The notes under the pieces are model-generated. The model was not told the origin of the DNA. It did no database searches and was given only the letters and a program-made list of their open reading frames with translations. Shown here piece after piece: positions 15,703 to 28,653 of a stretch of 28,753 nt of DNA. The translations under genes and the position numbers were made by a program. Source of the DNA: a virus; IMG/VR virus record IMGVR_UViG_3300043466_000356, positions 1-28,753 of that record; one strand, 5' to 3'. Numbering within the stretch: position 1 is the first letter of the stretch; each line of letters starts with the position of its first letter.

Positions 15703-16362
15703 ATGACTTGGGAAGATATTAACTTATTTAAATATCAAAGGCTTATCCCTGTTTTGCAGGAAGGAGAAAACATAGACCAATACTCAAAGATAATTGGCAT
15801 CCTTTATGATATGACAGATAACGAAGTTAATAGCTTGTCAATAAGCCAATACTTAGATTTAAAAGCAAAGGTTAACTTACTTTTAAACACAGACATCAAA
15901 GGTCAGCCTGTTAAGTACATTAAGTTGAAAGGTCGCAGGTATAAGTGCATTTATGATATAAGGAACTTACCTGCTGCCAGATACATTGAAACAAAAGTAT
16001 TTAGTGAGGACTTTATAGGCAACATTCATAAGATAGCTGCATCAATGGTAATGCCTATGAAGAAAACTTTATTCGGTTGGAAGTTGGATAAGTACGATGC
16101 CAGTAAACACGATGTGTACGCACAGGATATGTTGGAAGCAAGGTTTGTAGATGTGTATCAGAGTGCAGTTTTTTTTTTAAGTGTTTATCTGAATTGGATA
16201 AAAGTTTCGCAGGATTATATGATACAGGAGTTGAGCAAGACAGTAACCCATTCGGAAGCAGTAAAGGAGGTAGCAGATTTGTTGAAGTTTATGGATGGCA
16301 TTATACCATATACGAAATTGCCAAGCTCAACAATCAAGCGGTTAACGAGGTCTGGGAGATGA
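15703..16362 (+). CDS. Tail assembly chaperone, zero-frame product (G-like)
   Basis: 219 residues. The N-terminal part (MTWEDINLFKYQRLIPVLQEGENIDQYSKIIGILYDMTDNEVNSLSISQYLDL) looks like the structured domain of Bacteroidetes phage tail chaperones. The gene lies just upstream of tail genes, contains a ten-T slippery run at 16169-16178, and has an overlapping -1 frame that continues into a conserved-looking C-terminus. Those are the hallmarks of the lambda G/GT arrangement. The unshifted product continues past the slip site as LSVYLNWIKVSQDYM.... It would bind the tape measure before tail tube polymerisation. Confidence 0.75.
   Translation: MTWEDINLFKYQRLIPVLQEGENIDQYSKIIGILYDMTDNEVNSLSISQYLDLKAKVNLLLNTDIKGQPVKYIKLKGRRYKCIYDIRNLPAARYIETKVFSEDFIGNIHKIAASMVMPMKKTLFGWKLDKYDASKHDVYAQDMLEARFVDVYQSAVFFLSVYLNWIKVSQDYMIQELSKTVTHSEAVKEVADLLKFMDGIIPYTKLPSSTIKRLTRSGR
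16169..16179 (+). other. Programmed -1 frameshift slippery site
   Basis: Ten Ts then A. In the chaperone frame the codons are TTT (16174) and TTA (16177) preceded by T, giving T TTT TTA, the same heptamer as in retroviral -1 sites. Slippage moves translation into the 16179-16424 frame. No obvious strong downstream pseudoknot was found by eye. Confidence 0.7.
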
Positions 16363-16424
16363 AAACTTTAGAATATTTAAACACGATGGCATATATAAAA
16401 GCTTTGAGGGATTATCAGAAATGA
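16179..16424 (+). CDS. Tail assembly chaperone -1 frame extension (T-like)
   Basis: This frame is open from 16107 and has only a TTG (16194), no ATG, near the overlap. Entry from the slippery heptamer yields a fusion of 159 zero-frame residues plus 81 residues here (240 in total). The extension KCLSELDKSFAGLYDTG...RFVEVYGWHYTIYEIAKLNNQAVNEVWEMKTLEYLNTMAYIKAL is well structured. The IYEIAKLNNQxVxEVxEMxTLExLNxMAYIKA part resembles C-terminal chaperone segments of related phages. This supports a G/GT pair that recruits tape measure and tail tube in different ratios. Confidence 0.75.
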   Translation, partial: KCLSELDKSFAGLYDTGVEQDSNPFGSSKGGSRFVEVYGWHYTIYEIAKLNNQAVNEVWEMKTLEYLNTMAYIKALRDYQK

Positions 16425-25113: not shown

Positions 25114-25485
25114 ATACAACTAATCAAAGGAACTACTGCAAATGTTATTTTAACTCTTACAGAAAAGCAGTTATTATCTGCACCTAACTATTTATTTGTG
25201 TTTACGAATAGGACTACTAACTATGATGTTAAATTTATATTGACTAATGCTAAAGATTTATCTTTATTTAAAGAAAGGTTTAACAAGTTTAGTATTAAAG
25301 TAGATTCTTACTTTTCTACAAAGCTGAATGGACAATGGGGTTATTCTGTCTATGAGCAAACAAGTACACAGAACACAGATGTTACAGGATTAAATTTGTT
25401 AGAGAGTGGAGTAATGATATTAAGCGAACCGGAAACTATTTATACAGAATATAGTCCTTCTGATAAATTTAAAATAAGACAATGA
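25111..25485 (+). CDS. Virion-module protein, function unknown (GTG start)
   Basis: 124 residues. IQLIKGTTANVILTLTEKQLLSAPNYLFVFTNRTTNYDVKFILTNAKDLSLFKERFNKFSI is a beta-sandwich-like pattern, then SVYEQTSTQNTDVTGLNLLESGVMILSEPETIYTEYSP. I recognise this layout from structural regions of Bacteroidetes phages, without a defined role. The GTG start follows the terminator and the ACATTTATA motif. It overlaps the portal start by four bases, suggesting a head-tail accessory protein. Confidence 0.65.
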   Translation: MIQLIKGTTANVILTLTEKQLLSAPNYLFVFTNRTTNYDVKFILTNAKDLSLFKERFNKFSIKVDSYFSTKLNGQWGYSVYEQTSTQNTDVTGLNLLESGVMILSEPETIYTEYSPSDKFKIRQ

Positions 25486-27392
25486 ACAATTTTTTCGTAG
25501 TACAATTTGCTGAAGCAAAACAGCCTGAATATATTGAAAAGAAAGGCGAAGGATATATCCAATACGGACACAGGAACGACTACCCTAATTATTTGGTAGA
25601 ACTTTACAATAAGTCTGGTAAGCATCAATCTATTATTAAATCCAAAGTACATTACATTACAGGTAATGGATGGAAGGGTGCAGAAGGGTTTGTTAATAAC
25701 CCTAATAGAAGCGAGAATTTAGATGATGTTACCAGAAAGGTATCTTTGGATATAGAAATATTCGGAGGTGCTTATTTAGAGGTTATATGGTCTACAAGTG
25801 GCAAGATAGCAGAGGTGTGGCATTGTGATTATACTAAGTTTAGAACAAATAAAGACAACACACAGTTCTGGTATAAAAAAGATTGGAGAGATGCTAAAGA
25901 GAAGTACGAAGTTTACCCTGCTTTTGAACCAAGAAACCCAACAGGTAAACAGATATTGTATCTAAAAGAGTACAGACCAAATATGGAAACCTACACCTTA
26001 CCGGGTTATTTCGGTGGGTTAAATTATGTTGAATCAGATATAGAAGTATCTAAACATATTTTAGGTAATGCCAAGACAGGATTTAGTGCAAGTAAGTTAA
26101 TTACACTACCCAATGGCGAACCTTCTCCGGATGAACAGACTGTAATACATAAGAAGTTTAAAAATACATATACAGGTGCAGATGGTATAAAGTATATGTT
26201 AGCTTTTGTTAACGATGCTTCAAGAAAACCAATCGTTGATGATTTAGGGCAAAGTGATTTGACTAAAGAAGATTTTAGTAATGTAGATACTATCATCCAG
26301 ACTAACATATTTTCTGCACATCAGATTACTACTCCTTCAATTTTTGGTATTGCACAGGCAGGAAGTCTTGGCAGTCGTAGTGAAATGCGTGATGGGTACG
26401 AGATATTTAAAAATACTTACGTTAATAGTAAGCAAATGTTCTTGGAAGCTAACTTTAATATGTTAGCAGGATATGCCGGATATGAAGAAGATTTAAAACT
26501 AATACCTACAGAACCTATAGGAATTGATTTGTCTGAAGCTGTACTATTGCAGATAATGAGTAAAGATGAACTAAGGGATAAAGTAGGACTTCCACAAATA
26601 GAAGTTAAAGAAACTGCAAGTAATCAAGATATCATTGATGCTATTAATAGCCTTTCTCCTTTGGTTGCTACTAAGGTTATGAATACCCTTACAATTAATG
26701 AGTTAAGAAGTTTAATAGCATTAGCACCAAAAGAAGGTGGCGAAGGTATAGAATCAACAGATGTAGCTGTAGAGATGTCAGAGCAATTTAATTTTGCAGA
26801 CCTTGATGGATTTGGAGATAGTAAAGAAAGTTTCCATATTTGGAAACAAAAAGAACACTTTGCAGATGTAGAATTATTTGCAGATGTTACACAGCTTCAA
26901 TCAAATGTTCTTGACCTAATAACAAAGGATAAAAGAATCACACCAGAGGTTATTGCAGACACATTAAAGGAAGATGTGGGAGTGGTTAAACGAATACTAA
27001 CAGACTTAGAAAAGAAAGGCTTTATAAGCTCTAAAATTACTACCATTGGCGAAGGCTATGATGAGAGTGAGATTATAGAAAGAAAGCTAACTGCACCAAT
27101 TAGTGAGATAGTAGAAAAAATTAAACCTTCAACCACTGAATTTCTTATTCGTTATTCTTATGAGTGGCGGCAGGGGTTTAATGATTCTGATTTAAGTAGT
27201 TCAAGGCAGTTTTGTAAATACTTTAAAACTACAAATAAACTTTATAGCAGGTCAGAGATTGAAGCTATGAGTGCAAGGCTTGGTTATGATGTATTTACCA
27301 GAGGTGGTGGATGGTACACTTTACCGGGAACTAATAACCACAGGAACTTTTGTAGGCACTTGTGGAAAAGCAATGTTGTTACACGTAAATAA
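25482..27392 (+). CDS. Portal protein with winged-helix insertion and MuF-like C-terminus
   Basis: 636 residues in three parts. Residues 1-about 400 are a portal core: KHQSIIKSKVHYITGNGW, DIEIFGGAYLEVIW, ISKHILGNAKTG-like stem region and TNIFSAHQITTPSIFGIAQAGSLGSRSEMRDGYEIFKNTYV. Residues about 468-518 (QSNVLDLITKDKRITPEVIADTLKEDVGVVKRILTDLEKKGFISS) form a winged-helix pattern. Residues about 552-636 (RYSYEWRQGF...SSRQFCKYF...EAMSARLGYDVFTRGGGWYTLPGTNNHRNFCRHLWKSNVV) resemble a MuF-like head-morphogenesis domain. Its last eight codons are repeated, synonymously recoded, at 28029-28055. Confidence 0.85.
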   Translation: MNNFFVVQFAEAKQPEYIEKKGEGYIQYGHRNDYPNYLVELYNKSGKHQSIIKSKVHYITGNGWKGAEGFVNNPNRSENLDDVTRKVSLDIEIFGGAYLEVIWSTSGKIAEVWHCDYTKFRTNKDNTQFWYKKDWRDAKEKYEVYPAFEPRNPTGKQILYLKEYRPNMETYTLPGYFGGLNYVESDIEVSKHILGNAKTGFSASKLITLPNGEPSPDEQTVIHKKFKNTYTGADGIKYMLAFVNDASRKPIVDDLGQSDLTKEDFSNVDTIIQTNIFSAHQITTPSIFGIAQAGSLGSRSEMRDGYEIFKNTYVNSKQMFLEANFNMLAGYAGYEEDLKLIPTEPIGIDLSEAVLLQIMSKDELRDKVGLPQIEVKETASNQDIIDAINSLSPLVATKVMNTLTINELRSLIALAPKEGGEGIESTDVAVEMSEQFNFADLDGFGDSKESFHIWKQKEHFADVELFADVTQLQSNVLDLITKDKRITPEVIADTLKEDVGVVKRILTDLEKKGFISSKITTIGEGYDESEIIERKLTAPISEIVEKIKPSTTEFLIRYSYEWRQGFNDSDLSSSRQFCKYFKTTNKLYSRSEIEAMSARLGYDVFTRGGGWYTLPGTNNHRNFCRHLWKSNVVTRK

Positions 27393-28036
27393 TGCCATAT
27401 TTATATAGACATATCAGATTAGATAAAAATCAACCATTCTATATTGGAATAGGTAGTGATACTACTTTTAAAAGAGCATATAGCAAACAAAAAAGAAATA
27501 ATTATTGGTATTCTATTATAAATAATACTAAATATGAAGTTGAAATATTATTAGATAATTTAACAATACAAGAAGCTATAATAAAAGAAAAAGAATTTAT
27601 AAATCTATATGGTAGAAAAAATAACAATACAGGCATATTATCAAATATGACAGATGGTGGAGAAGGTGGATTAGGTGTTATATTTACAGATGAAAGAAGA
27701 AAAAAAATATCTATAAAAAATTTAAACAATAAATATAATTTAGGTAAAAACCATTCTGAAATAACAAAACAAATATTATCATTAAAGACAAAATCATATA
27801 TAAATATAAATAATCCAAGAATAGGTAAAAATCATAATAAAGAATCAAAAGAAAAAATAGCAATATCAAAAAACTGTGAACCATTCTTAGTTTTTAAAAA
27901 TGATAAATTTATTGGAAAATATTATGCACAAAGCATATGTGCTAAAGAATTAAATATAAATAGATGTGCAATTAATATGTGTTTAAAAGGAAAAAGAAAT
28001 AAAACAGAAAATTATACATTTATTTATGAAATCTAA
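27392..28036 (+). CDS. GIY-YIG homing endonuclease inserted at the portal stop codon
   Basis: 214 residues. GIY-YIG core: YLYRHI (3-8), FYIGIG (16-21), R28, catalytic Glu in KEKEFINLYG (about 66) and NMTDGGEGG (85-93). Two DNA-binding modules follow: RKKISIKNLNNKYNLGKNHSEITKQ (NUMOD3-like) and VFKNDKFIGKYYAQSICAKELNINRCAINMCLKGKRNK (NUMOD1-like). GC content is far below the flanking genes: sample 60-base lines count 9-10 G+C against 28 in the adjoining portal line. Its ATG shares the portal stop (TAATG). It is a recent free-standing mobile gene. Confidence 0.9.
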   Translation: MPYLYRHIRLDKNQPFYIGIGSDTTFKRAYSKQKRNNYWYSIINNTKYEVEILLDNLTIQEAIIKEKEFINLYGRKNNNTGILSNMTDGGEGGLGVIFTDERRKKISIKNLNNKYNLGKNHSEITKQILSLKTKSYININNPRIGKNHNKESKEKIAISKNCEPFLVFKNDKFIGKYYAQSICAKELNINRCAINMCLKGKRNKTENYTFIYEI

Positions 28037-28055
28037 CGTAGTAACACGCAAATAA
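28029..28055 (+). repeat. Displaced, synonymously recoded copy of the portal C-terminus
   Basis: In the same phase as the portal, nine codons read KSNVVTRK-stop, identical in protein to the portal end at 27366-27392. The DNA differs at seven of 27 positions, all silent: Ser AGC/TCT, Asn AAT/AAC, Val GTT/GTA twice, Arg CGT/CGC. It overlaps the last codons of the homing endonuclease and ends one base before the next gene, as the original portal stop would. Confidence 0.85.
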
Positions 28056-28056
28056 A

Positions 28057-28653
28057 ATGAGTGCAAATATACTTTTTATATCAGTAGATTCAATTAAGGA
28101 ACTAAGCGGTCTGCATAACAACGTGGATGAAAAACTTATCAAGCCAGAGATTAAAACGGCACAGGATATGTTTATTCATCCTGCTTTGGGTAGTGCTTTA
28201 TATTTAAGACTGCAAGAAGGTCTTGAATGTGGCAACCTAACTTGTGATGAAGAAACTTTACTTAGTGGATATATATCAGATACACTTATAAATTATGTGC
28301 TATCTGAATTACCACAGGGTTTGAGCTATCAGTTTTATAACAAAGGTCTTGTTAGGAAAAGTTCAGACAATACTGAATTACCTTCTATGCAGGACTTAAT
28401 TGATATTAGCAATAGATATAGGTCAAGAGCAGAGTTCTACAAGCAAAGACTGATTAAATACCTTAAAGAAAATCAAAATCTTTACCCTCAATACTTAAAT
28501 TTTGGTAGTGGTATAGATGCAATAAAGCCAGATAACGATGCCTACAGGGCAAGTATATGGCTTGGGGATGATGGATGCTGTGGACCATTCGACAAAAAAC
28601 CTTTGTATAGAGATATTTATCAAGGGAATAACCCTCCTTTTTGTTTGGACTAA
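28057..28653 (+). CDS. Head-tail connector candidate
   Basis: 198 residues. IKPEIKTAQDMFIHPALGSALYLRLQEGLECGNLTCDEETLLSGYISDTLINYVLSELPQGLSYQFYNKGLVRKSSDNTELPSMQDLIDISNRYRSRAEFYKQRLIKYL is a helical bundle with the DxxLIxxxLxxAL-like character of head-tail adaptors. I recognise the family as recurrent in Bacteroidetes phages, where it lies after the portal. It sat directly after the portal before the homing endonuclease arrived. Two cysteine-rich turns occur near the end (DGCCGPF). A connector or neck role is likely but unproven. Confidence 0.6.
   Translation: MSANILFISVDSIKELSGLHNNVDEKLIKPEIKTAQDMFIHPALGSALYLRLQEGLECGNLTCDEETLLSGYISDTLINYVLSELPQGLSYQFYNKGLVRKSSDNTELPSMQDLIDISNRYRSRAEFYKQRLIKYLKENQNLYPQYLNFGSGIDAIKPDNDAYRASIWLGDDGCCGPFDKKPLYRDIYQGNNPPFCLD

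Follow-up and report, generated by a model that had tools for sequence, protein, structure and literature searches.

A predicted GIY-YIG homing endonuclease cassette with a synonymous replacement of a phage portal C-terminus

Some prophages and islands rebuild the 3′ end of the gene they enter, as phage 21 and e14 do in icd: the element brings its own, differently spelled version of that end, which takes the place of the native one, and it integrates by means of a site-specific integrase and att sites. Synthetic cleave-and-rescue drives combine a nuclease directed against an essential gene with a recoded, cut-resistant rescue; they are engineered, use Cas9 and are usually placed elsewhere in the genome. 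The phage cassette described here would follow the logic of a cleave-and-rescue element, but differs from the synthetic drives in being natural and in lying at its presumed target, and from phage 21 and e14 in having an endonuclease and, presumably, repair-based homing.

Replacement of a C-terminus by an endonuclease open reading frame has been described in fungal mitochondria, first for atp6 of Allomyces and then for four genes of Glomus (atp6, atp9, cox2 and nad3, the atp9 enzyme being of the GIY-YIG type), where the native tails remain downstream and the differences are mostly silent (PMC3630166). A preliminary description of the present locus had drawn this parallel, and it is a real one. 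Like the fungal mobile ORFs (PMC3630166), the phage cassette has an endonuclease ORF near the 3′ end of a gene and an inserted C-terminus of high amino acid but low DNA identity to the second copy, and in related insertions a native C-terminus downstream that is closer to relatives. Unlike them, the phage cassettes affect a gene for a virion structural protein and one for a phosphoesterase, the replacement in the window is no longer than eight codons, relatives in the empty, occupied and scarred states can be compared in number, and in the phosphoesterase case the endonuclease frame runs on into the displaced tail. A review of T4 endonucleases describes SegA–SegG of T4-like phages, which resemble the cassette in being intronless GIY-YIG genes between conserved genes that spread by co-conversion, but which are intergenic and cleave hundreds to thousands of bases away (PMC2988022). 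The word stem ‘duplicat’ is absent from that review and no C-terminal duplication is described in it (PMC2988022), and the passages searched in a survey of phage endonuclease genes gave no case of tail replacement (PMC10448857). As our literature search, confined to openly available papers, also returned no phage precedent, C-terminal replacement by an endonuclease is apparently new in phages.

Two portal tails around a predicted endonuclease

The window (the whole stretch of DNA analysed, 28,753 nucleotides of IMG/VR record IMGVR_UViG_3300043466_000356) carries on its + strand, at positions 25482–27392, an open reading frame for a portal protein of 636 aa (PHROG 11226, 33693, 12 and 68). It ends in K-SNVVTRK and a stop at 27366–27392, spelled AAA AGC AAT GTT GTT ACA CGT AAA TAA, and this is the putative replacement tail, in which recoding begins at about the AGC codon (27369). 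The gene for a predicted GIY-YIG homing endonuclease of 214 aa (27392–28036, +) starts within the portal stop codon, as its ATG at 27392 shares the last base of the TAA (TAATG). The same eight residues and stop recur at 28029–28055 (+) as AAA TCT AAC GTA GTA ACA CGC AAA TAA, a putative displaced older tail that is untranslated in the portal frame; all eight residues agree, and the seven of 27 bases that differ are all silent, including a switch of the serine codon between AGC and TCT. On these points the sequence agrees with the preliminary description. That description had placed the second tail after the end of the endonuclease gene, which needs correction: the endonuclease TAA (28034–28036) sits within the tail, with an 8-base overlap in another frame. 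The offset of 663 bases between the copies is also as described, but the shared phase read into it has no coding meaning because stops separate the two copies. A DUF6712 structural gene (28057–28653, +; PF20459, E 1.9e-19), which directly follows the portal gene in relatives without the endonuclease (‘empty’ relatives), begins one base past the downstream tail; the 1-base spacer followed by ATGAGTGCAAAT is the same in the empty relative L005.

Chance similarity of the two tails was ruled out. A six-frame translation of the window contains 3938 stop-anchored 8-mers, of which just these two read KSNVVTRK, and the next-best 8-mer matches at 4/8 residues. When the tail of the upstream gene was compared with the sequence around the endonuclease end at 68 endonuclease loci, again anchored at stops, the window phage scored 38; in 4272 unrelated pairings that served as background, the 99.9th percentile was 23 and the maximum 25. 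An assembly artefact was ruled out as well, because the junctions recur identically in three contigs from other metagenomes (L001–L003).

The endonuclease matches TIGR01453, an NCBI family of group I intron endonucleases, with E 3e-10, which lies under the curated cut-off of that family, and 19 of 24 relatives match it at E 0.01 or better; Pfam GIY-YIG is found at E<0.01 in only one of the 24 members. An AlphaFold2 model, of moderate confidence (mean pLDDT 71.8) and poorly predicted in its middle, matched, by Foldseek, UvrC GIY-YIG domains (1yd5; prob 1.00, TM by target 0.57, E 0.016) and, in its C-terminal part, the DNA-binding part of I-HmuI (1u3e; E 7e-5). Residues Y5, Y17-I18-G19, R28, E68 and N85 are invariant across the 24 members, so the N-terminus is predicted from the model to have the GIY-YIG catalytic fold with its conserved Tyr, Arg, Glu and Asn. 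A separate NUMOD-type DNA-binding part is predicted at the C-terminus, where the window protein has a NUMOD-like match (PF22083); NUMOD3 is found in 19/24 members and the NUMOD-like part of I-HmuI in 12/24. Pairwise dN/dS among the endonucleases is 0.07–0.49, which indicates purifying selection.

The likeness to group I intron endonucleases raises the possibility that the gene sits within a self-splicing intron, the second tail being the end of the 3′ exon. Rfam searches at gathering and relaxed thresholds gave no intron at the window endonuclease, nor did Rfam at L267, L309, L086, L084 and L161. The portal C-terminus and stop are moreover complete before the insert, so that the portal frame is closed where an intron or intein would interrupt it, and TAATG leaves no intron sequence ahead of the endonuclease; we regard this explanation as extremely improbable. 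Identical short direct repeats of the kind left by a transposon are not found either, since the window tails are 7/27 bases apart and the copies in L086, L267 and L309 also differ.

Native, replaced and scarred portal ends

Scans of IMG/VR with the portal protein yielded about 170 loci having both portal and DUF6712 genes. Most of these are without an endonuclease and join the portal directly to DUF6712 with gaps of −4 to 6 bases (−4 to 13 bases between portal stop and DUF6712 across the endonuclease-free relatives), which is what had been expected of uninterrupted relatives. An endonuclease lies between the two genes in 22 entries, duplicate records of the same contig included (the window phage, L001–L003, L083, L084/L049, L085/L047, L086–L088, L161/L300 and L244). 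These represent at least five distinct endonuclease types, and the portal 3′ end is therefore a preferred site. At L083, L161 and L244 the endonuclease occupies the same place with no clear second copy of the tail, so the two-copy pattern either decays or is not universal. Relatives in genome contigs were found only in records of Chitinophagaceae and Mucilaginibacter, and the hosts are therefore probably Bacteroidota.

The relation between the two copies is clearest in L086–L088, whose endonuclease is 51% identical to that of the window. Here the upstream copy is GTT TCA AAT ATT GTC AGA AGG AAA TAA and the downstream copy CGT TCA AAC ATA GTT AAA AGA AAA TAA. In L086 and L088 the downstream copy shows 0/27 differences from the native tails of the empty loci L164 and L165, whereas the upstream copy has four differences from its nearest native, and the portals of L086 and L164 are 96.9% identical upstream of the tail. 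Because of this identity, from which the upstream copy departs, comparison with the empty loci identifies the downstream copy as the displaced original and the upstream copy as the replacement.

For the window phage the assignment is less direct. Its nearest empty relatives, L004–L006 (97% identical over the upstream portal), have a third synonymous tail, TCA AAT ATT GTA ACA CGT AAA TAA, five bases away from each window copy; this is possibly another old replacement. The tail of L007 is four bases from the window downstream copy. It had been predicted that uninterrupted relatives would join a tail of the type TCT AAC GTA GTA ACA to the connector gene, and this holds for L011, a more distant empty portal (TCT AAC GTA GTA ACA AGA), but not for the other empty relatives found. 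An exact search of viral contigs for the window downstream tail with its left context (TGGAAATCTAACG...) gave no match, and a looser pattern for this tail returned just the same phages and L011. The downstream copy is on average nearer the native tails of the same type (7.5 differences, against 10.2 for the upstream copy) and its 3′ flank is the native flank. Its position, and the parallel with L086, L267 and L309, lead us to take it as the older tail; the lineage to which it was native may be the one originally invaded and not this exact one.

The limits of the altered stretch were examined in pairs of portals with no more than 10% divergence over the 300 bases upstream of the tail. Window and L004 differ by 0–1 bases per 15 nt upstream and by five in the last eight codons. 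For codons 1–5 from the stop, divergence is 0.166 in comparisons of occupied or scarred with empty loci and 0.012 in pairs of empty loci; the corresponding values are 0.346 and 0.070 for codons 6–10 and 0.028 and 0.018 for codons 11–15, the two kinds of comparison being alike from codon 11 on. Among close relatives the divergence between occupied or scarred and empty portals is thus confined to the last ten codons or so. On permutation of the labels the observed tail difference was reached in 0/5000 trials (94 loci, 18 occupied or scarred), a figure which, as the loci are related and not independent, describes a sharp boundary more than a strict probability.

These comparisons bear on whether two tails in line might have arisen by target-site duplication or slippage, as identical copies of which one then drifted. 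Flank divergence is 0.072 for occupied or scarred against empty loci and 0.068 for empty pairs, and divergence in the tail is an order of magnitude greater; in L086 and L088, furthermore, it is the untranslated copy that is unchanged and the translated one that differs, beside a near-identical flank, which is the reverse of drift. Such an origin is very improbable, and an ordinary target-site duplication is rejected, as it had been in the preliminary description, because the copies differ (7/27 bases in the window) and the untranslated copy is native wherever this can be resolved.

Several loci represent what we term scars, having a recoded tail and no endonuclease (L166–L168, L174, L176, L178, L190, L193, L194 and L196). 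They have 11–12 extra bases between the tail stop and the next gene, for example AGAAAATAAGAA, which corresponds to the end of the native tail plus the spacer; in L167, L176, L178 and others the recoded tail is followed by AGAAAATAA, a remnant of the native tail. L168 agrees fully with the occupied locus L161 in its last nine codons. Read most simply, the scarred loci have probably lost the endonuclease and kept the replacement tail; partial transfer of the tail alone would give the same appearance. The endonuclease of L161/L300 is of a different type and lies behind exactly the L168 scar tail, which suggests that tails are shared or exchanged among endonucleases.

Evidence of movement comes from comparing endonucleases with their flanks. 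The window and L003 do not differ in the endonuclease or in either tail, whereas L003 departs from the window in the portal region from 1482 bases before the endonuclease start and in DUF6712 from 706 bases after it. Between L086 and L088 the endonucleases are 1.6% apart and the portals about 7.5% apart, and between L084 and L085 the endonucleases are 88% identical and the portals 77%. As the endonuclease is in each case more conserved than its flanks, it moves between portals, and absence from orthologous sites together with this spread between genomes is the behaviour of a homing endonuclease, as judged from the sequences compared.

A second target gene

In L267 and L309 the endonuclease follows a gene for a calcineurin-like phosphoesterase, in the same two-tail layout. 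These two loci lay outside our initial tail scan (67 loci from the first 80 endonuclease matches) and were among the four loci that exceeded the entire background in the 68-locus stop-anchored scan: L267 (51), L309 (47), the window phage (38) and L086 (30). L268, L281, L130, L137 and L280 were weak candidates. Across the final 36 bases (12 codons, the stop among them), the L309 downstream copy differs from the native tail of L322 at 2/36 positions and the upstream copy at nine from its nearest native; in L267 the downstream copy differs from native L325 at 1/36 and the upstream copy at seven from its nearest native. Because they are near-identical to the tails of empty relatives, the downstream copies are, on this comparison, identified as the native ones, and the DNA past the native phosphoesterase tails is nearly unchanged. 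In L267 the displaced tail (NGVALITLDEQGNVDVQNKRIKNGRIM followed by a stop, about 28 codons) is fused in frame as the C-terminus of the endonuclease, and in L309 it is likewise read in frame as the endonuclease’s own C-terminus. In the phage lineage to which L105, L103 and L096 belong, occupied phosphoesterases end in NYTIDKGQIS or NFTINKGEIS, while the natives are mostly of the KRIHKGKIL type; L412 has an end of the replaced type without an endonuclease.

Both genes bear on an explanation in which homologous recombination with a diverged phage brought in a portal 3′ end together with the endonuclease, so that the tail is the edge of a co-conversion tract with no role in immunity. The recoding is no larger than the synonymous differences among diverged natives (for example L011 and L013), differences of this size being normal among portal lineages, and a diverged donor would therefore suffice. 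Co-conversion probably does occur, as the altered stretch of L309 extends about 270 bases upstream as it would predict. However, a simple exchange leaves one tail, whereas in these loci the old one still follows the endonuclease, the altered stretch of the portal ends within about 10 codons in many comparisons, and the same layout is found at a second gene. This alternative, which departs from a cassette mainly over the cause of the recoding, is thus possible but doubtful.

Taking the several hundred related loci compared as a whole, the idea that a mobile gene brought a synonymous portal C-terminus and displaced the old end, put forward in the preliminary description, finds support in the empty relatives, in L086/L088 and L309/L267, and in the limit of about 10 codons. 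We consider that the feature is very probably a mobile cassette composed of a synonymous replacement of the portal C-terminus, a stop and a predicted free-standing GIY-YIG homing endonuclease. The comparisons demonstrate its architecture, the displacement of native tails in related insertions, the sharp limits, the recurrence at two genes and lateral spread, together with scars that probably record losses of the endonuclease.

Proposed mechanism and wider implications

The cassette would have inserted into an intact portal gene, eight codons short of the stop, so that the portal now ends in cassette codons and the old last codons lie unused behind the endonuclease and beside DUF6712. Given the in-frame stop, only the upstream copy should be expressed with the portal core. 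The endonuclease is expected, from what is known of homing endonucleases, to recognise and cut the portal 3′ end of phages that are without it, and repair off the occupied phage would then copy the endonuclease and the replacement tail together. The tail would have to differ in DNA and not in protein because the left flank joined to an identical tail would rebuild the target; a silently different tail could thus provide both a whole protein and target immunity. Recognition of the portal 3′ end and immunity of the recoded target are plausible.

Immunity might instead arise from physical disruption of the site alone, or cleavage might take place hundreds of bases away as with T4 Seg, with the tail swap incidental in either case. 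Free-standing T4 endonucleases do cut far from their own genes (PMC2988022), but the inserts here enter repeatedly within the same few portal codons, and in the clear cases they bring a substitute for just the part that they displace, as a site spanning the insertion point predicts. We judge an incidental tail swap improbable.

More broadly, we incline to the view, with some reserve, that natural cleave-and-rescue elements form a recurrent class in phages, seen here mainly in phages that probably infect Bacteroidota, and consisting of GIY-YIG cassettes at the 3′ ends of conserved structural and enzyme genes with recoded, cut-resistant C-termini. If so, the recoded tails and short remnants left after loss would be traces of earlier invasions and would preserve immunity of the gene. 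With no intron or intein, a free-standing homing endonuclease could then target conserved coding sequence in an essential phage gene by means of a differently spelled replacement, which ties phage homing endonucleases to C-terminal replacement in fungal mitochondria and to engineered cleave-and-rescue drives. Native and recoded tails, and occupied, empty and scarred alleles, provide natural test pairs with which recognition and immunity could be mapped. Caution is also due with synonymous hot spots near the ends of genes, as they may be scars of old invasions and not signals of codon usage.

Some further observations were made in the course of the scans. No tail copy was present at six loci of cultured phages that carry related endonucleases (Flavobacterium Fpv1, Curvibacter P26059A, two Rhizobium, one Sinorhizobium and one Enterococcus). 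In Flavobacterium phage Fpv1 (L483:1671-2001) a Sak4-like gene has its annotated start within a related endonuclease gene. The stretch of about 330 bases before this endonuclease has no gene annotation and by eye resembles an intron; Rfam at the gathering threshold gave no match there. L280:350-3804 has two GIY-YIG endonucleases, each after a gene ending in ...IVATK-stop, the first of these genes being of the Peptidase_S74 tail-fibre type, and the first endonuclease itself ends in IVATK-stop; because the codons of the IVATK copies are identical, L280 was ruled out as a recoded tail. Contig IMGVR_UViG_3300033094_000132 (L049/L084 and L105/L401) carries two endonucleases, at the portal and phosphoesterase 3′ ends, whose C-terminal halves are unlike. 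Elsewhere in the window, at 15703–16424, the overlapping open reading frames 15703–16362 and 16194–16424 could be a frameshifted pair.
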